Shown here: positions 1-10,528 of the stretch, piece by piece
How the letters are laid out: each line of letters starts with the position of its first letter
How positions within the stretch are numbered: the first letter of the stretch is position 1
Assembly: GCF_001049735.1 (NCBI RefSeq)
Contig: NZ_CVPC01000007.1
Span: 1 to 64,000 of the forward strand
DNA length: 64,000 nt
Direction: 5' to 3'
DNA from: Nereida ignava
Lineage (GTDB): Bacteria > Pseudomonadota > Alphaproteobacteria > Rhodobacterales > Rhodobacteraceae
Position numbers and translations under genes: made by a program
The notes under the pieces: generated by a model
The model's database searches: none
The model's input: the letters and a program-made list of their open reading frames with translations, nothing else
Told to the model about the DNA's origin: nothing

Positions 1-52
1 AAAACACATATTCTAAGTCTCATTCTCTTCCCTCCAACTTCACTTTTCTGAT

Positions 53-382
53 CTATGCTACGCTGATTTTTTTTGTCGCATTATAAACATCGCCATCGTC
101 GTCATACCAAGTGAAGGTGAACTCACCACTCTCTGGGACAATCGCTTCAAACTGAAAATACGGGTTCGTAGAAATGGCCGGCTCAAGTGCGACATCGATC
201 ACATTTTCGCCGTTAAATTCGGCCGTAAAGCGGTTGATAATCGACCTCGGAATAAGGTTACCGTCACCATCCTTACGCTGACCGCTTTCCATTTTGTGGC
301 TGATCAGTGTCTTGATTGTAATTGCCTCACCAGCTTCAGCTGTTTTGGGTACTTTCACCCGTGGTTTCACACCAGATGCCAT
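53..382 (-). CDS. soxZ: SoxZ, sulfur carrier partner protein
   Basis: Encodes a 109-residue SoxZ. In the periplasmic Sox pathway SoxZ pairs with SoxY, which carries sulfur intermediates on a C-terminal cysteine. The protein begins MASGVKPRVKVP and has the family's all-beta character, with a conserved HKMESGQRKD stretch and a C-terminal ETFxWxDDDG-like segment (here FTFTWYDDDGDVY). A longer upstream frame exists, but the ATG at 382 has a GGAG Shine-Dalgarno 7 to 8 bases upstream and gives the normal family length. It lies directly downstream of soxY; the next expected genes (soxA, B, C, D) would be past the left edge. It has no signal peptide, as expected, because SoxZ is co-exported with SoxY. 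Confidence 0.95.
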   Translation of the reverse strand: MASGVKPRVKVPKTAEAGEAITIKTLISHKMESGQRKDGDGNLIPRSIINRFTAEFNGENVIDVALEPAISTNPYFQFEAIVPESGEFTFTWYDDDGDVYNATKKISVA

Positions 383-444
383 ATTGTATCTCCTAGGTAT
401 ATTGTCAGCACCGCTGACAGTATGAATATTTGAAGTGCAGCCAA

Positions 445-861
445 TTAGCCGCCACAACCACCGATGGTCACTTTGACATTTGCCTTAGCCATCTGGAATG
501 ATCCGTCTTTCATCTCTGCAACAGCCACGACGTTCTGCGTTTTGGATAGTCGGATTCGTGTAGACGCTGTGCGCGACGCACTCAGCGCACCAAATTTGAA
601 GGTGGCAACGCTTGGAGTTGGGTTCCCATCAGCGAACAAAGTGATCGCAACAGCACCCGGAGCATCTATTTCTACGGGAACAGTGTTGCCATTCTCAGCA
701 ATTTCAGGGGCCGTTATGGAAATGCCGCCTTCGACAGCACCTGCGCCGCCTGTAAGAGCTGCAATTGCATCATCTGTCAGGCTTGCAAGGGCGGGAACTC
801 CTAAAAGACTAATGCTGCTAAACGTGCTTGCTGCGAGGAATTGTCTGCGAGTATAGCTCAT
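445..861 (-). CDS. soxY: SoxY, sulfur-carrying subunit
   Basis: Encodes a 138-residue SoxY, the carrier to which thiosulfate-derived sulfur is covalently bound during oxidation. The N-terminus has a twin-arginine signal (YTRRQFLAAS followed by a hydrophobic run), so export should be through Tat. The protein ends in the diagnostic flexible GGCGG tail, whose cysteine is the sulfur attachment site. The middle (about residues 45 to 130) has the beta-sandwich pattern shared with SoxZ. It lies between soxX and soxZ with short gaps (33 and 62 bases), so it is almost certainly in the same transcript. Confidence 0.96.
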   Translation of the reverse strand: MSYTRRQFLAASTFSSISLLGVPALASLTDDAIAALTGGAGAVEGGISITAPEIAENGNTVPVEIDAPGAVAITLFADGNPTPSVATFKFGALSASRTASTRIRLSKTQNVVAVAEMKDGSFQMAKANVKVTIGGCGG

Positions 862-894
862 GCTAGCTCCACTTTCTGGTAGTTTTAATCATCA

Positions 895-1350
895 TTAGAT
901 TTCATTGAGAGTCATAAGGTAGGCTACAACATCCTCAACCTGTTGCGCACTCAATATGCTTTTACCATCAAACTTTTTAAGTGGCCGCGTGTAGCCAGTA
1001 TCTTTATAAAACGCTGGCATAATAGTACCTTCAAACATCATTTTAGAGTTACTTACTATACCTCGAAGCTCAGCTTCAGACCAACGCTCAGCTACACCAT
1101 TTAATGGTGGACCAACCTGCCCATGAAAACTTTGCTCTGCAAGATCCTCATTTGCATGACAAGCAAGACAATTACCTAACTTGCGACTTGCGAAGACTTT
1201 CCTACCATTCTCAGCACTTCCAGCAGTATCCGTAAGGGCCGCACGCACCGCACCATCCTCATACATCACGCTTGAAGGCAGAACATCTTCAGCGGTAGCA
1301 ACCGTTGCAACCATTGTGGCTGCAAAGCCAATTGTAAAAATAGTTCTCAT
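895..1350 (-). CDS. soxX: SoxX, c-type cytochrome subunit of SoxAX
   Basis: Encodes a 151-residue SoxX, the small cytochrome c of the SoxAX complex that oxidatively couples thiosulfate to the SoxY cysteine. A Sec signal peptide is visible at residues 1 to about 20 (MRTIFTIGFAATMVATVATA). One haem motif CLACH occurs near residue 60, and the distal methionine is probably in GTIMPAFYKD. A C-terminal region around VEDVVAYLMTL fits the last helix of a cytochrome c fold. The ATG at 1350 is preceded by TAGGAGGCG. It is the first gene after the soxW-soxX gap, which holds a promoter and operator candidate. Confidence 0.95.
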   Translation of the reverse strand: MRTIFTIGFAATMVATVATAEDVLPSSVMYEDGAVRAALTDTAGSAENGRKVFASRKLGNCLACHANEDLAEQSFHGQVGPPLNGVAERWSEAELRGIVSNSKMMFEGTIMPAFYKDTGYTRPLKKFDGKSILSAQQVEDVVAYLMTLNEI

Positions 1351-1403
1351 GACGCCTCCTAGATGGAATCTAATTTTCCTAGGAGAGCTTATTGGATACT
1401 GAT

Positions 1404-1439
1404 ATTATAGCAAACATAAAATTCAAATATATGAATTTT
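1404..1439 (-). promoter_or_regulatory. soxX promoter with candidate SoxR operator
   Basis: In the 96-base soxW-soxX gap, the minus strand has a perfect TATAAT -10 hexamer (plus positions 1404 to 1409). Immediately upstream is a perfect inverted repeat with 8-bp arms, AAAATTCA (1418 to 1425) and TGAATTTT (1432 to 1439), separated by 6 bases. The repeat covers the -35 position. In Paracoccus, the ArsR-family repressor SoxR is known to bind the soxW-soxX gap, and AT-rich ATTCA/TGAAT palindromes are typical of ArsR-family sites. Assignment to SoxR is inferred from position and form; no soxR gene is seen beside this cluster. Confidence 0.6.
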
Positions 1440-1446
1440 TTACAAT

Positions 1447-2007
1447 TTACTGTTGTTCGGTAAATTTGCGAGCATGATATTTTTGGAAGGGCTCGTCTAA
1501 ACTGTACCCTTTCTCAAGAACCCACATGAGCATATTTTGTGTTGTCCAACGGCCAAACGCACCCGGCATACTTGCAACAGCAGCTTGAGAAGCAGAAGTC
1601 CCCGGCAATACCTCTTCTGGGAAGAAGTATATACTCGGGGTAAAGAGCGCGCCCCATTTTTTCACCATCTTTTTTTCTGGCAAAACATCCCCATCAAAAT
1701 CAGTGACCTCGACGTCGCCGAACATATTAATTTGAACAACATAAAAACTATCTTGAAGAATTTTTTCAATTTCTGGGATTATGAAAACCTCTTCATGCAT
1801 CTTACGGCAGTAAATACAGCCCTGCTGCTCAACTATCACCATTAAACGCTTACCTTCGACGTTCGCCTCAGCCAAATCCTCGTTCAAGTCTTTGAAAGTG
1901 TCTTGAATCCATGGCGCTTTATGTAAACCGTCATCCCCAACTGTCGCAGCATCAAGGGTTCCTACCAGTGAAGCCGCCATCAAAATACATACTATAATCT
2001 TCTTCAT
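1447..2007 (-). CDS. soxW: SoxW, periplasmic thioredoxin
   Basis: Encodes a 186-residue thioredoxin-fold protein with a signal peptide (MKKIIVCILMAASLVGTLDA) and an active-site motif GCIYCRKM near residue 60. SoxW is a periplasmic thiol-disulfide protein that takes electrons from the membrane protein SoxV to keep Sox components active. The ATG at 2007 is chosen because it starts the signal peptide directly; the frame stays open to 2043, overlapping the end of soxV. A conserved cis-proline region is present (LFTPSIYFF). It is followed downstream by the soxX promoter region. Confidence 0.9.
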   Translation of the reverse strand: MKKIIVCILMAASLVGTLDAATVGDDGLHKAPWIQDTFKDLNEDLAEANVEGKRLMVIVEQQGCIYCRKMHEEVFIIPEIEKILQDSFYVVQINMFGDVEVTDFDGDVLPEKKMVKKWGALFTPSIYFFPEEVLPGTSASQAAVASMPGAFGRWTTQNMLMWVLEKGYSLDEPFQKYHARKFTEQQ

Positions 2008-2021
2008 TTCGCACCTTTTTC

Positions 2022-2771
2022 TTAGCCTAATGTCTGAAACCATGGAATGAAATCGAGCATTAATTGAGCAACAAAATTCATTGAGTTAGTTGCGATCAGC
2101 AGGCCAAACATAATTAGCATGATGCCCATGACCTTCTCGACTACCCCTAGATGGCGTCTAAATTTTACTAGCCACTTCATGAAGGGTCCAATAAAAAAAG
2201 CCGCTAAAACAAAGGGCAGTGTCATACCAGTCCCATAAATAAATAGCAGCAATGCCCCCTGCCCAGTACTTTCTTGCCCTGCAGCCGTAAATAAAATTGC
2301 AGCCAAAACTGGTCCTACGCACGGCGTCCAGCCAAAGGCAAAAGCTAAGCCAAATAGGTAGGCTCCACCCAAACTGACTTTCGAGGAGCCTGCCTGATCT
2401 ACACGAAGTTGCCGATACAAAATGCTTATCTTTATTAAGCCTAAGAAGTGGAGCCCCATAGCACCGATAACTGCTGCTGCTGCCCATCGTAAAATATCAA
2501 AATAGTCACGAACCAAACCGCCAACAAAAGTAGCACTAGCTCCTAAACCAACGAAGACTGTTATAATTCCCAACGAAAATATGATTGCGGCGACAACAGC
2601 ACGTAGGCGGACGCTTGCTGAAATGGTAGCATCTTCTGAAATCTGATTGATACCAACACCAGCTAGATAGCTCAGATAAAATGGTACGATTGGAAGTATG
2701 CAAGGAGACAAGAATGAAAGAAAACCGGCGATTAATGCGCCTGAAACACTCAAATCAATCACCTGTAGCAC
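2022..2771 (-). CDS. soxV: SoxV, CcdA/DsbD-like membrane thiol transporter
   Basis: Encodes a 249-residue membrane protein of the CcdA/DsbD beta-domain family with about six transmembrane segments. It passes reducing equivalents from cytoplasmic thioredoxin across the membrane to SoxW. The two expected redox cysteines are present in the paired motifs FLSPCILPIVP (about residue 24) and GWTPCVGP (about residue 153). The start is a GTG at 2771; its first codons overlap the stop of a short frame upstream that may be the remains of soxS. SoxW follows with a gap of only 14 bases. Other CcdA proteins look similar, but the sox neighbours settle the name. Confidence 0.92.
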   Translation of the reverse strand: MLQVIDLSVSGALIAGFLSFLSPCILPIVPFYLSYLAGVGINQISEDATISASVRLRAVVAAIIFSLGIITVFVGLGASATFVGGLVRDYFDILRWAAAAVIGAMGLHFLGLIKISILYRQLRVDQAGSSKVSLGGAYLFGLAFAFGWTPCVGPVLAAILFTAAGQESTGQGALLLFIYGTGMTLPFVLAAFFIGPFMKWLVKFRRHLGVVEKVMGIMLIMFGLLIATNSMNFVAQLMLDFIPWFQTLG

Positions 2772-2908
2772 TCCTTTTGATATTCACCATCTTCTATTTG
2801 TTGTCGGTAAAATTGCTGATGGTCAATTAATAAGCGGAGTAGATACTGAAGTGTTGCTGAGCTTCCACTCCAACTCAGTGGGTGTAGCACTGGGTAATCC
2901 GCAGATAA
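2759..2908 (-). pseudogene. possible 3' remnant of soxS
   Basis: A 49-codon open stretch without a start codon ends at a TGA (2759 to 2761) inside the first codons of soxV, the kind of overlap expected of a translationally coupled upstream gene. It reads PVLHPLSWSGSS, then QYLLRLLIDHQQFYRQQIED and ends KECYR. In related sox clusters the order is soxR-soxS-soxV, so the C-terminus of SoxS is the natural guess. I cannot recognise SoxS residues with confidence, and the frame is closed upstream by stops, so the remainder of soxS and all of soxR are missing here. Confidence 0.3.
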
Positions 2909-3072
2909 TCACAGCACCACGTTTGCGTTAATTTAATGACAAAGGCGCACTCTCAAACACACACTTCCATAGACTTGTTGGTACGCCCTGCCATAGTGTT
3001 GCTGTGAGGAGCGGGACGTGCAGCAGCTGCGTGATGATACACATGTGATACTGGACGGCAAAGTGCGTGGTA

Positions 3073-3186
3073 TCGGCGTGAGCCTAGCCTGTAGACCTCA
3101 AGGTCGGTCTCTAACAGCCAGCCAGCCCACCAGAACACATCTGCGCGTGTGCGGGCGCGCGTGGCACAAGTGGCCAACTCGATCAA
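3073..3186. repeat. 114-bp repeat, left copy
   Basis: This segment matches 10257 to 10370 over exactly 114 bases with 13 mismatches and no gaps (about 89 percent identity). It begins TCGGCGTGAGCCTAGCCTG and ends GGCCAACTCGATCAA. A frame is open through both copies on the minus strand, but all nine differing codons change the amino acid, so protein coding under selection is unlikely. In both places the repeat lies about 80 to 100 bases before the 3' end of a tRNA or tRNA remnant, so it looks like the terminal segment of a family of integrative elements. This copy lies outside the current island. Confidence 0.75.
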
Positions 3187-3287
3187 TGATTAAACAAAAG
3201 TAGAACTCAAAGGGTGGATAATTGAGTGTATAAAAATATCCATAAATCCGTTAAATTATTGATAATAATATATATTTTATGATGAAA

Positions 3288-3332
3288 TGGTGCCCCACAC
3301 GGACTCGAACCGCGGACCTACTGACTGCTAGC
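3288..3332 (-). pseudogene. truncated tRNA, 3' half
   Basis: On the minus strand this reads as a tRNA 3' half: variable loop AGGTC, T-arm CGCGG-TTCGAGT-CCGTG (five pairs with one G-T), acceptor strand GTGGGGC, discriminator A and CCA. The segment where the anticodon and D arms should be does not fold, so the gene is broken. The acceptor strand would need a 5' partner GCCCCAC, which I do not see nearby. A tRNA 3' end of this kind is what integrases of tRNA-targeting elements duplicate, so this is best read as an old att scar from a different target tRNA. Confidence 0.55.
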
Positions 3333-3491: not shown

Positions 3492-3507
3492 AGTGGCGGA
3501 CCGAGGA
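3492..3507. repeat. left att-like repeat of the island
   Basis: The 16 bases AGTGGCGGACCGAGGA are identical to 10450 to 10465, where they cover the 3' end of the intact tRNA-Arg gene (CCA complement and acceptor strand). This is the direct repeat expected when a tyrosine integrase inserts an element into a tRNA 3' end. It marks the left limit of the island, and the integrase gene begins about 145 bases inside it. The duplicated core may be longer with mismatches, but exact identity stops after these 16 bases. Confidence 0.8.
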
Positions 3508-3628
3508 TCCGCATAACTTATATTCCAACATCTTCCACAGTTAACGCATAATATGCTTATTTTAATGCATATTGCCATTCCTATCATCTCTAACATTCCT
3601 TACAATACCCATGTGTTCCAAGATTTTT

Positions 3629-3652
3629 GTGGGGGCGAATGTGGGGGCGAAT
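3629..3652. repeat. tandem 12-bp repeat at integrase start
   Basis: GTGGGGGCGAAT occurs twice in direct tandem here and ends in the ATG of the integrase gene. A near copy, TGTGGGGGCTAA followed by TGTGGGGGCGCT, occurs at 10374 to 10397 inside the right end. These pairs at both ends are candidate arm-type sites for the N-terminal domain of the integrase. Binding over the start codon would also allow the integrase to repress its own synthesis. The repeat creates two extra in-frame starts (MWGRMWGRM), which are probably not the true start. Confidence 0.55.
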
Positions 3653-4868
3653 GGCTAAGAAACTTACAATCCAATATTTAAATTCACGACTTGAAGCTGG
3701 GCGGTATTATGACAGTTCAGGAACGGGTCTGCATATTCATGTAAGATCAAGTGGTTCGAAGAGCTGGTCGCAAAAGCTGCGCTTCCGTGGCAAGCAAATC
3801 GAGCTTGGGCTTGGCAGCTACCCCAGCGTCTCTCTTGCAGAAGCCCGTGAGTTAGCTGCGAAGAACAAGAAGCTGGCAGCAAGCGGTGAAAACCCACGAG
3901 TTGCACGGCGCGTACCTACTACGATACCGACGTTTGCCGAGGTCGCTGAAATCGTAATACGCCTCAAGCAATCGGAACTCTCAAACCCAAAACACAAAGC
4001 ACAATGGCGCTCCACGCTAGAAACCTATGCATTTCCGTTACTCGGGCACATGGCTGTTGACGAAATTACTGTGAATGACGTTCATCTCGCCTTGGAGCCG
4101 ATTTGGTCCAAAAAACCCGAAACTGCAGGAAGAGTTCGCGGCAGGATACAATCGGTCCTCGACTATGCCACCGTTAAGGGACATCGCTTAGGACCAAACC
4201 CTGCAATTTGGGGCGGGAACCTATCCATACTTCTCCCCGCAAAACCCAAGAGCAACAATCATCACCCAGCACTTCAACTTAAAGATGCACAGCGGTGGTG
4301 GCATGAACTGAAACGAAGAGATGGTATCGGCGCAAAAGCACTTATGCTTGTTACGCTGACAGGATCACGATCCAACGAAGTACGAGGCACGGATTGGTCT
4401 GAGTTTGAGCTTTATTCAGAAGATAAGGCTAAGGGGTCTGGCTTCTACGGTGAGTGGACAAGGCCGTTTGATCGCATGAAGGCCCGCGTCGAGCATCGCA
4501 TCCCCATAACCGGCCCTATTCTTGAGGCGCTGCATGCAAGCAAAACAAGTAGTGGGCTTGTTTTTAGGTCGCGTTCGGGCAGTCCTATCTCCGACATGAC
4601 AATGTCTGCCTTGATGAAACGCATGCACACTGCAGACGAAATTGGATTTGTTGACAAAGTCAGTAAACGCCCAGCGGTACCCCACGGCTTACGTTCGACT
4701 TACAGAGACTGGGTAGCTGAACACGGTCACTCTCGCGAGGCAGCGGAGTTGCAACTTGCTCATAAATTTGGCGGGGCTACCGAACACGCATACTACCGAA
4801 CAGATTTACTCGAACAACGCGCAGAGCTGATGAACAAATGGCATGCATTTTTGGAGGGAACGGGATGA
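3651..4868 (+). CDS. tyrosine integrase, P4-like with DUF4102 arm domain
   Basis: Encodes a tyrosine site-specific recombinase of about 405 residues that would insert and excise the island at tRNA-Arg. Residues 1 to about 85 form the DUF4102 arm-binding domain (RYYDSSGTGLHIHV, LGLGSYPSVSLAEARELA), 100 to 180 a core-binding domain, and the rest the catalytic domain. Likely catalytic residues are Arg240 (TGSRSNEVRG), His345 and Arg348 (HGLRSTYRDW), His371 (LAHKFG) and Tyr381 (HAYYRTD). All are present, so the enzyme looks active. Alternative starts at 3627 (TTG) and 3639 lie inside the 12-bp tandem repeat; I prefer 3651. The stop overlaps the next gene's ATG. It lies just inside the left att-like repeat. 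Confidence 0.95.
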   Translation: MAKKLTIQYLNSRLEAGRYYDSSGTGLHIHVRSSGSKSWSQKLRFRGKQIELGLGSYPSVSLAEARELAAKNKKLAASGENPRVARRVPTTIPTFAEVAEIVIRLKQSELSNPKHKAQWRSTLETYAFPLLGHMAVDEITVNDVHLALEPIWSKKPETAGRVRGRIQSVLDYATVKGHRLGPNPAIWGGNLSILLPAKPKSNNHHPALQLKDAQRWWHELKRRDGIGAKALMLVTLTGSRSNEVRGTDWSEFELYSEDKAKGSGFYGEWTRPFDRMKARVEHRIPITGPILEALHASKTSSGLVFRSRSGSPISDMTMSALMKRMHTADEIGFVDKVSKRPAVPHGLRSTYRDWVAEHGHSREAAELQLAHKFGGATEHAYYRTDLLEQRAELMNKWHAFLEGTG

Positions 4869-5377
4869 GTAAAAAACGTGTCCGAGGTCTTTTTGATATT
4901 GTCGGCTTGGCTGATGGCGAAGAGTGGGAGCTTGAGCCAAATAGCGAGGACTTTGTATTCGGTATGGGGATGGGGGCAACAGAAGACGCAACTCGCTGGG
5001 CATACAAAGGCTTTTGCTTGGAAGTAGGCCAGTCCATCAGAAAAATTGCGGCCAAGAATAGCGGTCGACCGCGTAAAGAAGCATATCAAAGCTACGACTG
5101 TCTGAGAGCACTCGTTATTTGGGAGCATGTTCAAAGGTACATTCCTAAAGAACTACGCTCTGGTATTACTAATCGTGCGCTGATCAAAATCATGCAAGAC
5201 GGCGAGGCAGCATACTCTCTAGGTGGCGTGCGGAATAGTTCTGAACTGTTCCCTAAAGCATCCGCTACAATAGAGACGTCACTGTCCCGCGGCCGCAAGG
5301 AGTTAAAGATTGACGAGAATTGGGAAAGTGAAGTTTGCGAAAAACTAATCGAAAGTTATCCGCAAACGACTGAGTAA
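4865..5377 (+). CDS. hypothetical island protein
   Basis: Encodes 170 residues beginning MSKKRVRGLFDIVGLADGEE. The ATG at 4865 overlaps the integrase stop and follows a GGAGGG ribosome binding site, so it is translationally linked to the integrase. The protein is soluble, with no signal peptide or membrane segment. A basic patch (NSGRPRKEAYQ) in the middle and an acidic N-terminal third are visible. I do not recognise a family. Position between integrase and AlpA suggests a role in element maintenance or control. A longer start at 4838 is less likely as it would run deep into the integrase. Confidence 0.7.
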   Translation: MSKKRVRGLFDIVGLADGEEWELEPNSEDFVFGMGMGATEDATRWAYKGFCLEVGQSIRKIAAKNSGRPRKEAYQSYDCLRALVIWEHVQRYIPKELRSGITNRALIKIMQDGEAAYSLGGVRNSSELFPKASATIETSLSRGRKELKIDENWESEVCEKLIESYPQTTE

Positions 5378-5430
5378 GAGCCAGAAGATACCCTTTCCAG
5401 CAGTGGCTAACTGGATCGAAGGAAAACCCA

Positions 5431-5619
5431 ATGGTTCCCACAATATTACGCCGAACTGAGCTGGAACAAAGGCTCGGTTTATCTCGCAGCTCTATCTACA
5501 AAATGATGGATGAAGGCGAATTTCCTCGCCCAGTCAGAATAGGTCGACGCGCTGTCGGTTGGCTGGCCGAAGACATCGAAAAATGGTTTGAGGCCATGCA
5601 GGGAGGTGTCAGCAGATGA
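5431..5619 (+). CDS. AlpA-family helix-turn-helix regulator / excisionase-like
   Basis: Encodes 62 residues of the AlpA/MerR-like winged HTH type: RRTELEQRLGLSRSSIYKMM is the HTH, followed by the family signature EFPRPVRIGRRAVGWLAEDI and a terminal EKWFEAM helix. AlpA proteins act as regulators or excisionase partners in P4-type prophages, satellites and tRNA islands, often activating integrase or excision. It ends in an ATGA overlap with the next gene. Length is normal for the family. Confidence 0.9.
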   Translation: MVPTILRRTELEQRLGLSRSSIYKMMDEGEFPRPVRIGRRAVGWLAEDIEKWFEAMQGGVSR

Positions 5620-5954
5620 CTAAAATACCCCCCACCCTGTCGCTAAAAGACGGGAGTACTTCACCACAGCCCTCTTCACGCATGGAGAGCGCGGACTACT
5701 ACGACGATGTGATCCTTCACCTCAGCCCTCGCTACCGCGTGATCACGTGCCGCGATTTGGCCCAGTGGATAATCCAAAAGAAAGAGGCGTCCCATGCAGG
5801 CCCTTGGCGAGGCGTCGGCTATCATACGTGTCGTGACAGCCTGATGCGGGCGTGTGGGAGCTTAAATCTGCTCTCAGCGACAGTAGAGGACCAGCTCCTC
5901 AACGCCCTTCCCGCTTCTTTCAGTGAATATGCAAAAGAGCGCACCTGCTCATAG
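5616..5954 (+). CDS. hypothetical island protein
   Basis: Encodes 112 residues, starting at an ATGA overlap with the AlpA gene. No signal peptide or membrane segment. The N-terminal 25 residues are polar and probably disordered; the core (ILHLSPRYRVITCRDLAQWI, then HTCRDSLMRACGSL) is compact with three cysteines. I do not recognise the family. It sits between the regulator and the primase-like gene, so a role in replication initiation or its control is possible but unproven. Confidence 0.65.
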   Translation: MTKIPPTLSLKDGSTSPQPSSRMESADYYDDVILHLSPRYRVITCRDLAQWIIQKKEASHAGPWRGVGYHTCRDSLMRACGSLNLLSATVEDQLLNALPASFSEYAKERTCS

Positions 5955-5957
5955 AAA

Positions 5958-5985
5958 AACCGCGCACTCCTGAAAGCACGCGGTT
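5958..5985. other. inverted repeat before primase-like gene
   Basis: AACCGCG (5958 to 5964) pairs with CGCGGTT (5979 to 5985) around a 14-base loop, just after the stop of the preceding gene. There is no T-run, so it is a weak terminator candidate. It could be an operator or an mRNA processing site separating the regulatory genes from the replication genes. Confidence 0.35.
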
Positions 5986-6072
5986 AGTTCAGTCCGACAA
6001 ATTTTTTAGAGAGCTTTGTCTGGCTAAACAATAGCATGTTTTTGGGTGTGTCTCAATCTTGGAGATTGTTTC

Positions 6073-6921
6073 ATGCAAATTGAATATCCACTTTCACCAA
6101 AAGCCCGCAAATGTGGCAGCGGTTGGGTTGATCTGTGCCCAGCACATGACGACCAGTCCCCATCGCTCAGCATCAACATCGCTGCCGATGGCAAGCTGCT
6201 GCTTCACTGCTTCGTTGGCTGTACGTTTGAGAACATTGTCGCAGCGGCAGGTCTGAGTAGCTCTCAAGCGGTTCGATCTGTTACGCGCAGTGATCTTGAG
6301 CAGATCAAGCAGCAACAACTAGAGGCAGCTAAACGCAAAACAGCCTACTGCAAGCAATTATGGCAGCAGGGCCAGCCACTCGAAGGCACGTTATCGCAAT
6401 CCTACCTTGCATCGCGGGGTATAGACCACTGGAGCAGTTCGCAGCGGCACCACTCAGGCCTGATTTATCCCAATACAGGTGAACGCCTGTCTGTTCTTCT
6501 GACGGCCATACAGCGCAGCAGTCAGCTCGTTGGGCTGCATCGAACCTTTCTGAACCCAGATGGCACAAAGCGTGACAAGCTCATGCTAGGCAAGTGCAAG
6601 GGCGGCGCGGCTCACCTGATTGGAACCGCTGGGCCACTCATTGTGGCTGAAGGCATTGAGACTGCGCTCTCCCTGCCTGCACTGCATCAATCTGATGAGG
6701 GACGGTATTGGTCGGCTCTTTCAGCAAGCGGGGTCAAATCGCTCGAACTGCCACAGACCGCAGATCAGTTGGTGATAGCGGCTGACGGTGATCCAGTCGG
6801 CCTCGCAGCTGCTGAAGAGCTTGGCCAACGTGCTGCGCGTCTTGGATGGGACGTCACTCTCATGCAAGCGCCGGACGGCAAAGACTGGAACGACATCTTG
6901 ATGGAGCAGCGCAATGACTAA
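6073..6921 (+). CDS. CHC2 zinc-finger / Toprim primase-like protein
   Basis: Encodes about 283 residues. The N-terminus carries a CHC2-like zinc-binding module (Cys22 and His25 in CPAHDDQSPSLSI, then HCFVGC around residue 50). The C-terminal half is a Toprim domain: the catalytic glutamate motif LIVAEGIETALSL, then VIAADGDPVG and a final KDWNDIL. Such proteins act as primases for plasmids, phages and satellites. The ATG at 6073 follows GGAGA by 8 bases; a GTG at 6046 lacks such a site. It overlaps the next gene by 8 bases, so the two are co-translated. No helicase domain is fused; that function appears to be in the next gene. Confidence 0.88.
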   Translation: MQIEYPLSPKARKCGSGWVDLCPAHDDQSPSLSINIAADGKLLLHCFVGCTFENIVAAAGLSSSQAVRSVTRSDLEQIKQQQLEAAKRKTAYCKQLWQQGQPLEGTLSQSYLASRGIDHWSSSQRHHSGLIYPNTGERLSVLLTAIQRSSQLVGLHRTFLNPDGTKRDKLMLGKCKGGAAHLIGTAGPLIVAEGIETALSLPALHQSDEGRYWSALSASGVKSLELPQTADQLVIAADGDPVGLAAAEELGQRAARLGWDVTLMQAPDGKDWNDILMEQRND

Positions 6922-8035
6922 CTTTGATCCCTCACAGGGCGTAAAGATAAGCAACCCAAGGGTGGAACAGATACGGGCAGCCCTAACTGCCGCGACTGAC
7001 ATTCATCATATTGAGCACCGCCCATACCTCGTAAAATCATGGCTCGATCTTGATGCGACATCACTTGTTTATGGACAGTCCAACACGGGCAAATCCTTCT
7101 TAACCCTTGATATAGCCCTCCATGTTGCGGCTGGCTGGTGGTGGAACAGCTGTAGGGTGACACAAAGTAATGCGATCTATGTCGCCGCAGAGGGAGGTAC
7201 TGGCTTCACGAAGCGGATCAGAGCAATTGCTGAGAGCAAGCCCGACTTGTACAATGCAGCCAGAGAGCACTTTCACCATCTGCCACTACAGCTCGACCTG
7301 CACGGGTCTGATGACGTGGCAGCGCTGTTAACCGCAATAGGCGAACGCCCTGTTGATCTGTTGATCATTGATACACTGGCCATGTCGTTTGGAGCGGGCA
7401 ATGAGAACGACGGGAAAGATGTCACGCAGTTCCTAAGCCACATCGCAGAGATACGCCAAAAGCTGAGCTGCCATGTCATGCTTGTCCACCATAGCGGTAA
7501 AGACCAAGGCAAAGGCGCGCGTGGGCATAGCAGCTTGCGTGCCGCAGTTGATACTGAGATCGAAGTCAGCATGGACGGCTCGATGCGTTTGGCTACCACC
7601 AAGAAACAGCGTGATCTTGAAGGAGGTAAGGTAGCTGCCTTCACGTTAAACGTGGTCAACTTGGGCGATGATCAGGATGGTGAGCCGATCACTAGCTGTA
7701 CAGTGCAACCGCAGAACACTGATGATCTGAAGCGCAGCAAAGCTCGAATGCTCAAAGGGAACAACCAAGTTGCAGAACAGGCGCTACACGATGCGCTCAA
7801 GAACAAGGGCATCAAGATAACCAATTCAGAGCATTACCCATCAAACCGCAGGATAGTCAGCACTGATGAGTGGTATCGCGAGTTCCAAATGAGGCGGGCT
7901 AAAGATGGCGTACAAGAAGACAGCAATCGCAAGGCATTCAACCGCTCCCGCAACTGGCTACAGGACCAAGACTATACTCGCGAATATGATGGCAAAGTCT
8001 GGTTCATCGATGAAACGGACAGACAGGACAAATAG
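6914..8035 (+). CDS. RepA-like AAA ATPase (replicative helicase type)
   Basis: Encodes 373 residues with a RecA-type ATPase core of the AAA_25/RepA helicase group. Walker A is GQSNTGKS (residues 54 to 61), Walker B is in VDLLIIDTLAMSF, and a VMLVHHSGKDQGKGARGHSS segment matches the family's sensor region. The C-terminal 110 residues are basic and may bind DNA. Together with the Toprim protein upstream it forms a compact replication pair like those of IncQ plasmids and phage satellites. The 3' end of the gene runs into a dense cluster of GGACA/TGTCC motifs that may be its origin. Confidence 0.88.
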   Translation: MTNFDPSQGVKISNPRVEQIRAALTAATDIHHIEHRPYLVKSWLDLDATSLVYGQSNTGKSFLTLDIALHVAAGWWWNSCRVTQSNAIYVAAEGGTGFTKRIRAIAESKPDLYNAAREHFHHLPLQLDLHGSDDVAALLTAIGERPVDLLIIDTLAMSFGAGNENDGKDVTQFLSHIAEIRQKLSCHVMLVHHSGKDQGKGARGHSSLRAAVDTEIEVSMDGSMRLATTKKQRDLEGGKVAAFTLNVVNLGDDQDGEPITSCTVQPQNTDDLKRSKARMLKGNNQVAEQALHDALKNKGIKITNSEHYPSNRRIVSTDEWYREFQMRRAKDGVQEDSNRKAFNRSRNWLQDQDYTREYDGKVWFIDETDRQDK

Positions 8036-8117
8036 CGGACATGTCCGACCCTTGTCCGCCCCCCATCTAGACGGACAGACACGGACATCCCCCTAAAGGG
8101 GTGTCCAGTTGTCCGGT
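8015..8117. other. candidate replication origin: GGACA/TGTCC cluster
   Basis: At least eight copies of GGACA or its complement TGTCC are packed into about 100 bases straddling the end of the RepA-like gene. They include the perfect palindrome CGGACATGTCCG (8036 to 8047) and a hairpin whose arms are 8083 to 8093 and 8098 to 8106 with one bulged base. Short repeated motifs beside a replication initiator or helicase gene are typical iterons. There is no T-run after the hairpin, so a terminator is less likely. Origin function is inferred. Confidence 0.5.
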
Positions 8118-8176
8118 GGGGGACTGAATTGGATAAAAGCTAACGAGGCGCAATCAAGGACAGTCTGTTTTCATTC

Positions 8177-8205
8177 AAAAGGGCAACTCAATAGCTGCCC
8201 TTTTT
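8177..8205. terminator. bidirectional terminator between convergent island genes
   Basis: AAAAGGGCA (8177 to 8185) and TGCCCTTTT (8196 to 8204) form a stem with a 10-base loop, flanked by A-runs and T-runs on the two sides. It lies between the plus-strand replication genes and the minus-strand surface genes and should stop transcription from both directions. Confidence 0.75.
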
Positions 8206-8233
8206 CCGCTCACTCATTTTTTGGGGTCGCTAC

Positions 8234-9151
8234 TTAATTTACGACAGCCTTAAACTCTACGCCGTCAATAAAACCATTCAGAAATGTATCACTAGAAGGG
8301 CCAACGTAACCCTCTAGAGAAAGCATATTAGTTAATTTTATACCAAAATCAAAAGATGTGCTGTTTGCTGTAATTACAACCGGAGTCGTGAAAGTCTGCA
8401 CTATCAGCTGCCTAGTAGCGTTAGTCTCCCCACCGCTATCATATTCCTCGAGAGTCGAAGCATCTTCCATGCCACAGATAACCGAGCTGCCTGACGATGT
8501 GGTGAACTCTAAGTCAGAAGATGACGCCACGATTGCACCGCTTGAAATAGTACAAGTATCTCCATCAGTCAGATAAGCTCCCTGCGTTTCCGTGAACCAA
8601 CCGGCTGTCAGCTCATCTTCATCTGCTTCCGGAATACAATTGAAAAAGCCGCCAAAAGTTGAATCAATATCATCTTGCGACCCAGATGCGGTGCTTGTGG
8701 CGCAACGGTCTCCATCAGCCAACCCGACACCAATTTCCCAGCCATCTTGGTCAGCCGAAAAAGCTGCAGTATGTTTCAGGCTAATTTCATTTCCCAATAA
8801 AATAACCGCCGCTGGATAAACACCTTCCGCGAGAGAAATTTCGTCCACGATGCTCAGGCTACTACCTTCTGATATTTCTAAATCCTGCGCGACAGCATTA
8901 TCAACGATAAACGAGCAAACAGTCTGATAGTTCTCGTAAGTCGGAATGGCGCTACAAAGCCCAAGTTTATACAGCGGGAAAGACGCATAATCTGGGGTAA
9001 CAGTACACCAAGAGCTTTCAGTTGCCGTAATGGTATTCGTTATTTCATTGTCGCTGTTCAGTACACAAGCTGCGGCATTTACTTGACTTACAGGCATCAA
9101 ATACAGCGCCAGTCCCAATATGATTACACTGAGTTTCAATAGGTTCTTCAT
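8234..9151 (-). CDS. secreted Cys-containing protein, island cargo
   Basis: Encodes 305 residues with a clear Sec signal peptide (MKNLLKLSVIILGLALYLMP, cleavage likely after VNA). The mature part is acidic, rich in Ser, Thr and Asp, and has eight cysteines, enough for four disulfides. Two internal segments look duplicated: LADGDRC and LTDGDTC, each followed by a second Cys about 24 to 26 residues later (FFNC, SVIC). No lipobox, anchor or catalytic motif is seen, and I do not recognise the family. The ATG at 9151 follows the stop of the upstream beta-barrel gene by one base, so they are translationally coupled. A longer GTG start at 9163 is less likely. A passenger or partner of the barrel is the natural guess. 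Confidence 0.75.
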   Translation of the reverse strand: MKNLLKLSVIILGLALYLMPVSQVNAAACVLNSDNEITNTITATESSWCTVTPDYASFPLYKLGLCSAIPTYENYQTVCSFIVDNAVAQDLEISEGSSLSIVDEISLAEGVYPAAVILLGNEISLKHTAAFSADQDGWEIGVGLADGDRCATSTASGSQDDIDSTFGGFFNCIPEADEDELTAGWFTETQGAYLTDGDTCTISSGAIVASSSDLEFTTSSGSSVICGMEDASTLEEYDSGGETNATRQLIVQTFTTPVVITANSTSFDFGIKLTNMLSLEGYVGPSSDTFLNGFIDGVEFKAVVN

Positions 9152-9152
9152 T

Positions 9153-10130
9153 TTAGTATCCACTCACTGTAACGCCGAGTTTGATGGCTTTTTTCATAAT
9201 GCGGTTTTCACGTTGGACGGGCTGGTAAAGCTTCTCGCGGATGGGCTTCATCTTCGTGGACCATTTGCCGTCCTGCATCTTCTTCTCAACCCGAGGCGTT
9301 GTGCCAAGCGGAATTGAGTAGCTGATTGAGGCTACCGTATCTGATGTGGTGTTGTCTCTCTTTTGACGGGACACATCGACCACAACGTTCGGGAAGACCT
9401 CTGCGCTGATGCCCAGCTGTTCGGTTTCCGTTTTGTAGCCCGCTCCATCTTTCCACTCACTAGATGTGAAGTGAATGTTCGATGAGTAGAAGTATGGAAG
9501 GTTGGCAGTAAGTTTGAAGTCCTGCCCGTCTAGAGCCGTCTCATCAATACCATTGTAATTAATAGTGCCGGTGATGGCGTTATACTTGTTCGCACGGAAC
9601 TCGAGCATTGAGGTCATAAGCTCTACGCCCAAGCTGGAGCGTTTGTGACCAGAACTGGCCTCGTAGTCATAGAACGCGTTAGCCCCAACGATGACAGTCT
9701 CATCATCAGATATACGGCGCGCACCAATGCCGAGGTTATAAGTATTGCGGCCATCGAAGTTTACGACCGAACCTTGGTTGAACAGGAAGAGGTTCTCATC
9801 TTCGTAAAGGCCATAGACGGCCATAAGCTCAGTCTTAGTATCACTGCCGGTATCAAGCCCGAAGATGTCAGAGCCGATACTGAAATCCAGATATGTAAAT
9901 CGCGACCCACCAATGACAGCTTCTTCGAGCAAATTTACTTGGTTGTTCACAACACCTAGTGCGAAGTCACCCAGCTCCTGCTTTGCGGCTTTACCGCGTT
10001 CACTGTTGTTAGCCCCTTGTGCGATATTCTTTACTATTGAGGGCAGCTCGTAGCTCAGAAAGCGACTTTCAGCGTTCAGCGAAACGGGGACTGCAGCCAA
10101 AATGGCAGCAGCAGGTAAAAAGATACGCAT
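9153..10130 (-). CDS. stand-alone inverse autotransporter beta-barrel (intimin/invasin type)
   Basis: Encodes 325 residues: signal peptide MRIFLPAAAILAAVPVSLNA, then an outer-membrane barrel resembling the inverse-autotransporter beta-domain. Diagnostic segments are LLEEAVIGGSRFTYLDFSIG, YNLGIGARRISDDETVIVGA, NAFYDYEASSGHKRSSLGVE and the barrel-end motif PVQRENRIMKK. In intimins and invasins the barrel is followed by a linker and Ig-like passenger domains; here the protein stops right after the barrel. The ATG at 10130 follows AGAGGA; the frame also opens at a TTG (10151) that would place that binding site inside the gene. It is the first gene of a two-gene unit read towards the replication genes. 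How a passenger-less barrel functions is unknown. Confidence 0.85.
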   Translation of the reverse strand: MRIFLPAAAILAAVPVSLNAESRFLSYELPSIVKNIAQGANNSERGKAAKQELGDFALGVVNNQVNLLEEAVIGGSRFTYLDFSIGSDIFGLDTGSDTKTELMAVYGLYEDENLFLFNQGSVVNFDGRNTYNLGIGARRISDDETVIVGANAFYDYEASSGHKRSSLGVELMTSMLEFRANKYNAITGTINYNGIDETALDGQDFKLTANLPYFYSSNIHFTSSEWKDGAGYKTETEQLGISAEVFPNVVVDVSRQKRDNTTSDTVASISYSIPLGTTPRVEKKMQDGKWSTKMKPIREKLYQPVQRENRIMKKAIKLGVTVSGY

Positions 10131-10149
10131 TGGATGGATTTCCTCTATC

Positions 10150-10173
10150 AAGTCCCGAGTTGGGACTTATATA
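10150..10173 (-). promoter_or_regulatory. promoter-like element with operator palindrome upstream of barrel gene
   Basis: On the minus strand a TATATAAG -10-like sequence (plus 10166 to 10173) overlaps a perfect inverted repeat, AAGTCCC (10150 to 10156) and GGGACTT (10162 to 10168), with a 5-base spacer. The repeat would sit over the transcription start, about 20 bases before the barrel gene's ATG. This is a natural repressor-type operator position, or a 5' UTR hairpin. No clear -35 is visible. Confidence 0.4.
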
Positions 10174-10256
10174 CACTTACAGCCAAGACCAACGAAGGCA
10201 AGGCAGAAAACGCTACCGGCCCCCTACCGACCACTCGGCAGCAGGGTGCGGGTATG

Positions 10257-10370
10257 TCGGCGTGAGCCTAGCCTGCAGGCCTCAAGGTTAGCCTCTAATG
10301 GCCACCAAGCCCACCAGAACACATTTGCGCGTGTGCGGGCGCGCGTAACACAAGCGGCCAACTCGATCAA
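10257..10370. repeat. 114-bp repeat, right copy
   Basis: Matches 3073 to 3186 with 13 mismatches over 114 bases and no gaps. This copy lies inside the island, immediately before the tandem 12-bp arm-like repeats and 80 bases from the tRNA-Arg 3' end, so it appears to be part of the element's right terminus. It contains the palindromic CCTGCAGG and a GC-rich GTGCGGGCGCGCGT core. No RNA family is recognised. Confidence 0.75.
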
Positions 10371-10373
10371 GAT

Positions 10374-10397
10374 TTGTGGGGGCTAATGTGGGGGCGC
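10374..10397. repeat. right-end tandem 12-bp repeat (arm-like)
   Basis: TGTGGGGGCTAA followed by TGTGGGGGCGCT is a near copy of the tandem pair at the integrase start (3629 to 3652). It lies between the 114-bp repeat and the right att core. Paired arm-type sites on both sides of the core are expected for a tyrosine integrase with a DUF4102 arm domain. Confidence 0.55.
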
Positions 10398-10449
10398 TGC
10401 AATCAAAGCACTCGAATAAACGTTTAAAAACAGGAACTTATTAGGAAAA

Positions 10450-10465
10450 AGTGGCGGACCGAGGA
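10450..10465. repeat. right att-like repeat within tRNA-Arg 3' end
   Basis: Identical in 16 bases to 3492 to 3507. It covers the CCA complement and acceptor strand of tRNA-Arg. The target tRNA remains whole at this end, so the island extends to the left of it. Confidence 0.8.
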
Positions 10466-10528
10466 GGATTCGAACCCCCGACCCCTTGATTCGTAGTCAA
10501 GTACTCTATCCAGCTGAGCTATCGGTCC
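10452..10528 (-). tRNA. tRNA-Arg (ACG)
   Basis: A 77-base minus-strand tRNA including an encoded CCA. Acceptor GGACCGA pairs with TCGGTCC; D arm GCTCAGCTGGATAGAGT; anticodon arm CTTGA-CTACGAA-TCAAG with anticodon ACG; T arm GGGGG-TTCGAAT-CCTCC. All arms pair. It is the integration target of the island to its left, since its 3' end is duplicated at 3492. Confidence 0.97.

Follow-up and report, generated by a model that had tools for sequence, protein, structure and literature searches.

Genomic islands inserted at tRNA genes are one of the principal routes by which marine bacteria gain genes. Changes of target gene and the stacking of such islands have mostly been inferred from gene content. 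In Dehalococcoides, the part of the published account that treats the ssrA islands describes them as standing in tandem behind one RNA gene, with short repeats of its 3' end as their bounds; some members carry an integration module at the edge, and others were compared to cis-mobilizable elements (PMC3146451). Additive flexible islands and tycheposons of aquatic bacteria are described, in the corresponding part of their report, as variable cargo at tRNA genes with repeats of the last 20 tRNA bases and with tyrosine recombinases (PMC10872708).

The window analysed here is a stretch of 64,000 nucleotides from Nereida ignava. It contains two copies of a 114-bp repeat on the same strand, identical at 101 of 114 bases without a gap (E 1e-32 in a blastn comparison of the two copies within the window, far beyond chance). 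Transitions account for 11 of the 13 differences. Gapped similarity extends slightly past the repeat (3050-3191 against 10233-10374, 85%), and the genome holds no further copies of the 114 bp at E<=0.001. A sequence-only reading of this DNA had described a gap-free repeat of equal length, about 80 bases ahead of a tRNA-Arg 3' end on the right and about 100 bases ahead of a truncated tRNA 3' half on the left. These descriptions were borne out: the 3' end of tRNA-Arg(ACG) at 10452 lies 81 bases past the end of the right copy, and a 3' remnant of tRNA-Thr(TGT), starting at 3288, lies 101 bases past the end of the left copy.

The same reading had favoured a role as nucleic acid, either a site or an RNA, over a peptide. 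The only frame open in both copies is on the minus strand, and all nine changed codons are replacements, as had been stated. When 13 random changes of the same kinds were simulated, replacements alone were obtained in 2.1% of trials. There is therefore no sign of a conserved peptide. The RNA half of the claim was not supported. A structured RNA or terminator is extremely improbable: a 9-pair hairpin can be drawn in which 90.4% of cells pair, but as many paired cells were reached by 128 of 500 shuffles and the covariation score by 64 of 500, so that the proposed check of the collected copies for a conserved fold gave a result no better than shuffled sequence. The 114-mers likewise fold no better than shuffles (z-scores 0.69, 0.41, -0.54 and -0.72), and at the gathering threshold Rfam finds nothing but tRNA in the window.

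The widely conserved part of the 114 bp is a GC-rich core of about 45 bp. On balance, we favour the reading that this core is the inner boundary of tRNA-proximal island ends in a group of marine Rhodobacterales and that it probably acts as a recombination hinge, joining cargo to varied integration modules. The features of the window that bear on this reading are collected in Table 1.

Table 1. Features of the two repeat-bearing island ends, in window coordinates.
Feature	Position	Strand	Basis or remark
Debris of the lone-integrase upstream region and first codons, fused to left copy	2953..3088	+	85% over 135 bp
114-bp repeat, left copy	3073..3186	+	match to right copy
Conserved core, left copy	3123..3169	+	model R2, 53.6 bits
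Presumed arm pair, type T (GGTGGATAA-like), beside left copy	3212..3232	+	repeat pair
tRNA-Thr(TGT) 3' remnant	3288..3324	-	match to intact tRNA-Thr of same-genus genome
16-bp direct repeat of tRNA-Arg 3' end, integrase-side boundary of element A	3492..3507	.	sequence repeat
Presumed arm pair, type A (GTGGGGGC twice, 12-bp period)	3629..3648	+	directly upstream of int
Integrase of element A	3651..4868	+	Arm-DNA-bind_3, Phage_int_M, Phage_integrase
AlpA-type regulator	5431..5619	+	domain match
112-aa protein	5616..5954	+	50%-identical relative adjoins integrase of HTCC2083 element 1
Toprim primase	6046..6921	+	domain match
AAA_25 ATPase	6914..8035	+	domain match
Cargo, 309 aa	8234..9163	-	no match in Pfam, PHROGs, NCBIfam
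Cargo, inverse-autotransporter beta-domain	9153..10151	-	332 aa, Pfam IAT_beta E 2e-35
Lone-integrase debris ahead of right copy, ~40 bp	10233..10272	+	75%
114-bp repeat, right copy	10257..10370	+	match to left copy
Conserved core, right copy	10306..10353	+	model R2, 49.2 bits
Presumed arm pair, type A, beside right copy	10376..10395	+	repeat pair
16-bp direct repeat, tRNA-side boundary of element A	10450..10465	.	sequence repeat
Intact tRNA-Arg(ACG)	10452..10528	-	tRNA detection

The right copy stands in a complete element, element A, which spans 3492 to 10465 and is bounded on each side by the same 16 bp of the tRNA-Arg 3' end, in direct orientation. Searched on both strands, the window has this 16-mer at 3492 and 10450 only. 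With both boundary repeats present and an integrase gene adjoining a boundary, element A is, to judge from its sequence, a tRNA-integrated genomic island with a tyrosine integrase. Its gene set (Arm-DNA-bind_3 integrase, AlpA and primase) is what we take to be that of a P4-like tRNA-targeting island. The pair GTGGGGGC-N4-GTGGGGGC is present exactly twice in the window, upstream of the integrase (3629) and between the 114-bp repeat and the tRNA (10376). A genome of the same genus (G081) has a tRNA-Arg with the same 16 bp and is without element A. Neither the arm pair nor the core was found in the 200 bp on that side of its tRNA-Arg, and the 1.5-kb flank showed no other match to the window. As cargo, this small alphaproteobacterial island carries an inverse-autotransporter beta-domain protein next to a 309-aa protein without a family match. 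Furthermore, a protein of 112-118 aa without a Pfam match (5616-5954; C5:2820232-2820588 in HTCC2083) is 50% identical between two elements, whose integrases gave no mutual match in the same blastp. This protein is a candidate shared accessory factor.

The left copy faces a scar. Positions 3274-3324 match the intact tRNA-Thr locus of a same-genus genome in 50 of 53 columns. In N. ignava itself, an intact tRNA-Thr with an integrase gene adjoining its 3' end is found on contig C23. No integrase fitting the left element was seen in 1-3073 of the window, where the contig begins at base 1; the decay of this element, as proposed in the sequence-only reading, is therefore no more than possible. Genes for SoxZ, SoxY, SoxX, a thioredoxin-like protein and a DsbD-like membrane protein occupy 53-2771, immediately left of the left copy. 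These sulfur-oxidation genes might be cargo of a tRNA-Thr element, with the contig ending at window base 1.

The 114 bp are composite in origin. Their first ~10-20 bp, together with ~120 bp leftward, correspond to the 5' end of a lone integrase gene. The stretch 2953-3083 has five further copies in the N. ignava genome (84-90% identity), which represent the upstream region and first codons of a tyrosine integrase of ~413 aa, intact in four cases and broken in one. These genes (L028-L032) lie on contigs C12, C15 (two), C17 and C20, encode proteins that are 96-97% identical, and each begin ~65 bp downstream of a conserved AACACACACTT boundary. Relatives of the lone integrase were found at 53 loci in genome_contigs (L037-L089), and the integrase was detected in 13 of 394 family genomes at E<=1e-60. 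At L088, from a Roseobacter MAG, the same fusion leads into a tail that shares 73% identity with the window copies, ~124 bp ahead of a tRNA-Lys. Planktotalea-group copies other than Pf115 (11 examined) have at least 73 bp in common on the inner side. The longer of these shared pieces include a C-terminal piece of a transposase, which we read as IS3-type (Pfam rve_3, E 2.9e-4, below its cut-off). An origin of the repeat as an internal-deletion miniature of the lone integrase was considered and dropped, since only L088 of L037-L088 holds the core and lone-integrase debris is carried by 4 of 15 core copies: left (L), right (R), MAG (K) and Pf115 of P. frisia.

Two side observations concern the lone integrase itself. 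A co-oriented tRNA-Phe is found upstream of it at 10 of the 49 loci scanned (L046, L048, L051, L053, L066, L067, L072, L074, L076 and L081) and at the N. ignava copy L032; tRNA-Phe is possibly a favoured neighbourhood for this gene. Copies L029 and L028 (C15 and C20) have the same 3' flank and different 5' flanks, and one of the two copies runs into a contig end. This may reflect an assembly join at a repeat.

The distribution of the core was established with profile searches. Searches with the 114-bp query matched the N. ignava genome alone (1 of 149 and 1 of 2 genomes). An order-level search matched 9 of 390 genomes at E<=0.01, N. ignava included; the eight extras (E 0.0027-0.0090) are about what chance gives and were rejected on sequence inspection. 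A first profile, built from three tails (the two window copies and L088), was run over 44 genomes; 7 of these, HTCC2083 and P. frisia included, had matches at E<=0.1. The core model itself has 50 columns and was built from 11 copies. Among 394 family genomes, E<=5.3e-12 was reached by N. ignava and P. frisia alone, and the next match stood at 5.6e-5. Matches at E<=0.02 were obtained in 111 of the 394 and were taken as chance in GC-rich DNA. Because this number is far above the E-value expectation, the model's E-values are too low for such DNA; acceptance was based on the gap between 5.3e-12 and 5.6e-5, and the remainder was treated as chance. Diverged copies may have been missed, since just 28 weak loci were examined. 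Among 147 relatives of P. frisia, three genomes matched at E<=1e-4: P. frisia with 2 copies, HTCC2083 with 8, and G686, of the same genus, with 2. At the same threshold the core was absent from three other genomes of the genus of G686 and P. frisia.

In total, 15 distinct core copies are known from five genomes. L088 and L089 (the same contig in a second MAG) were counted once, as were G633/G675 and G648/G688 (same coordinates). Several weak loci were left out: L118 (E 0.033, with a tRNA-Thr ~315 bp away), and L119, L124, L126/L127, L128 and L132 (E 0.017-0.098; those searched were without a tRNA).

The sequence-only reading had proposed that other genomes be searched for tRNA 3' ends beside copies of the repeat. 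Such ends proved to be the rule: 14 of the 15 core copies have an intact or partial tRNA 3' end facing them, the exception being one of the G686 copies (C4, L180), which has neither. Five face an intact tRNA (tRNA-Arg in N. ignava, tRNA-Lys in the MAG and in G686, tRNA-Thr and tRNA-Ser in HTCC2083), so that four kinds of tRNA (Thr, Arg, Ser, Lys) are found beside cores. For six, the left copy and five in HTCC2083, the facing sequence is a 3' remnant of tRNA-Thr that measures 14 bp or more and in one case is imperfect. These 11 cores end 104-131 bp from the tRNA end. The remaining three, of which two are in P. frisia and one is HTCC2083 235036, face 8-12 bp of a tRNA-Thr end; at 235036, the remnant is 8 bases long, lies at just 49 bp and is without arms. 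A tRNA-Thr 8-mer was found at 40-140 bp of a random HTCC2083 point in 89 of 20,000 trials. Three of the four core copies that were not used in building the model face a tRNA or remnant. As a control, the 28 weak, chance-level loci of the same model were inspected: none has an intact tRNA within 130 bp, against 5 of the 15 core copies, and none has an 8-base tRNA-Thr end facing at 40-140 bp. The placement of 14 copies at tRNA ends or remnants, at type-specific distances and not in many unrelated places, speaks against a miniature transposon or insertion-sequence derivative.

The longest series of cores is found at the tRNA-Thr of HTCC2083. Six successive cores are spread over ~148 kb, where the intact tRNA and five remnants are each followed by a core. 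An integrase was recognised at one of the five far scars (blastp with four N. ignava integrases matched one ORF); at the other four, ORFs within 4.5 kb were judged by eye. Metabolic and transporter-like genes, also named by eye, adjoin others of the scars. A promoter for cargo was rejected as the function of the core, since the first genes beside the HTCC2083 cores point either way.

Between core and tRNA, 13 of the 15 copies carry direct repeats, in pairs with a 12-bp period (HT139, of type T, shows one half clearly). Three unrelated kinds were distinguished: type T (GGTGGATAA-like), type A (GTGGGGGC) and type C (TGTCTCGCT). The distance from core to arm is 49-52 bp in type T, 29 bp in type A and 62-64 bp in type C, and from arm to tRNA 54 bp (47 in HT139), 55-56 bp and 46 bp, respectively. 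These pairs are putative arm sites of the integrases. The claim that both window copies are termini of one element family in different tRNAs was thus right about the tRNAs and too simple about the family: since their arm repeats differ, the left and right elements are not simply one family and probably have different integration modules. Arm pairs at both ends were found in two integrase-bearing elements, element A and HTCC2083 element 1 (2793747 and 2822608), where a tandem type-C pair stands at either end.

A further element, in a tRNA-Ser of G513 (HIMB11), has type-A pairs at both ends and an integrase that shares 64% identity with the element A enzyme. No core was found in this one element. 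The core is therefore not essential for integration, and the G513 element speaks against the core being an integral part of the type-A attachment module. The attachment-site reading was dropped as the main one on this account. In 18 other integrase loci, each holding ~1.5 kb or less per side, no core was found either. A related reading is that the core is an accessory attachment site which binds a shared protein (AlpA-type, the 112-aa protein or a host factor) in the tRNA-side integrase complex. The core does lie just inside the arms at a distance constant for each type, element A encodes both AlpA and the 112-aa protein, and HTCC2083 element 1 has a relative of the latter; with the same arms and no core in G513, we nevertheless consider an accessory site quite unlikely.

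Another candidate role is that of a site for transfer, replication or packaging near one terminus of mobilizable islands. The core is a GC-rich near-palindrome, lies at a single end of elements that encode a primase and an ATPase, and is shared by islands with different integration modules. Against this, databases of mobile DNA gave no credible match. Phage sequences had no match to the repeat or core, and viral_contigs had none to three exact patterns. One plasmid search was without a match and another gave a 21-bp match at E 0.6, which was rejected; in sequence similarity, the core is thus not like known plasmid origins of transfer. We regard such a site as very unlikely. An exact-pattern scan of genome_contigs had no match, with a pattern made from the two window copies that would miss the HTCC2083 cores.

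The preferred reading, that the core is an inner boundary and a hinge, draws on the placement at tRNA ends, on the type-specific distances and on how core similarity is distributed; the L180 and HTCC2083 235036 copies count against it. Core identity is 0.86 within a genome between different types (13 pairs) and 0.85 within a genome and type (10 pairs). It is 0.74 between genomes within a type (18 pairs) and 0.73 when both differ (37 pairs). In a permutation test on 13 copies with an arm type, 7 of them from HTCC2083, the observed difference was reached by 9 of 2000 permutations of the genome label and 611 of 2000 of the type label; the copies are not independent, because they are related by descent and several lie within one array. 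Since core similarity tracks genome and not arm kind, cores and integration modules seem to have been reshuffled at the core. Arm repeats set the type on the outer side of the core, where the spacer exceeds shuffles in most of the arm-matched pairs compared. Inside the core, the sequence partly follows lineage, with transposase debris in the Planktotalea copies examined and lone-integrase debris in N. ignava, the MAG and one P. frisia copy. As the outside follows arm type and the inside partly lineage, a join between interchangeable parts is placed at or near the core.

The order inward from the tRNA is tRNA 3' end (attachment core), presumed arm pair, type-specific spacer, core, mobile-gene debris and cargo. 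In an excised circle, the core would lie between the cargo and a module made up of attachment site and integrase. Islands in one cell may then recombine through the common core, and cargo ends would be joined to different integration modules. The simplest route would be ordinary homologous recombination between coexisting island ends. In N. ignava, the same inner segment stands on the tRNA-Arg element (right) and at the tRNA-Thr scar (left), and hence the 114-bp repeat.

The same pattern is predicted by ordinary shared ancestry plus gene conversion. The core might descend from the end of an ancestral island and have no role of its own, with gene conversion keeping its copies similar within each genome, and we hold this to be possible, if improbable. 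The type-C spacer shows no less conservation than the core (K against HT129, G686a and Pf122: spacer 0.67-0.73, core 0.57-0.65), and the related G513 element either functions without a core or has lost it. However, the type-T pairs L-Pf115 and Pf115-HT117 keep the core at 0.79-0.80 beside a spacer of 0.56 and 0.49, at or near shuffled identity, and of constant length (50-52 bp). A role of its own for the core is hinted at by these two pairs; it is not seen in two other type-T pairs, L-HT117 and L-HT137, whose spacers (0.62 and 0.64) are also above shuffles, or in type C. A stronger version of the hinge, in which the core has its own recombinase or recombination-promoting activity and islands exchange whole modules, so changing their target tRNA gene and keeping varied cargo behind one standard end, seems doubtful to us.

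The presence of a common end-piece on islands with different insertion machinery suggests that islands swap their machinery there. A core fixed between cargo and module, and common to modules of different specificity, would provide a handle on target change and stacking. With it, island ends that have no integrase can be recognised, the limits of tandem arrays drawn and module exchange put to the test. Even if the core is neutral, it would still be a useful boundary marker in core-bearing genomes.

Among the literature matches listed, no title or abstract opening was found to describe a shared end sequence across attachment specificities. Element A has the genes and the tRNA 3' end site of P4-like islands and differs in its core, which is absent from the one related complete element examined. 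As far as the cited part of the account goes, the Dehalococcoides ssrA islands resemble the HTCC2083 array in their tandem order and their 3'-end repeats, and perhaps in their partly missing integration modules, and differ in having serine integrases, one target gene and no common inner end sequence across attachment specificities (PMC3146451). The additive islands and tycheposons, in the part of the report cited, occur in other hosts and lack a conserved core with constant spacing to the attachment site, while tRNA-gene cargo, tRNA-end repeats and tyrosine recombinases are features that they share with the core-bearing islands (PMC10872708).
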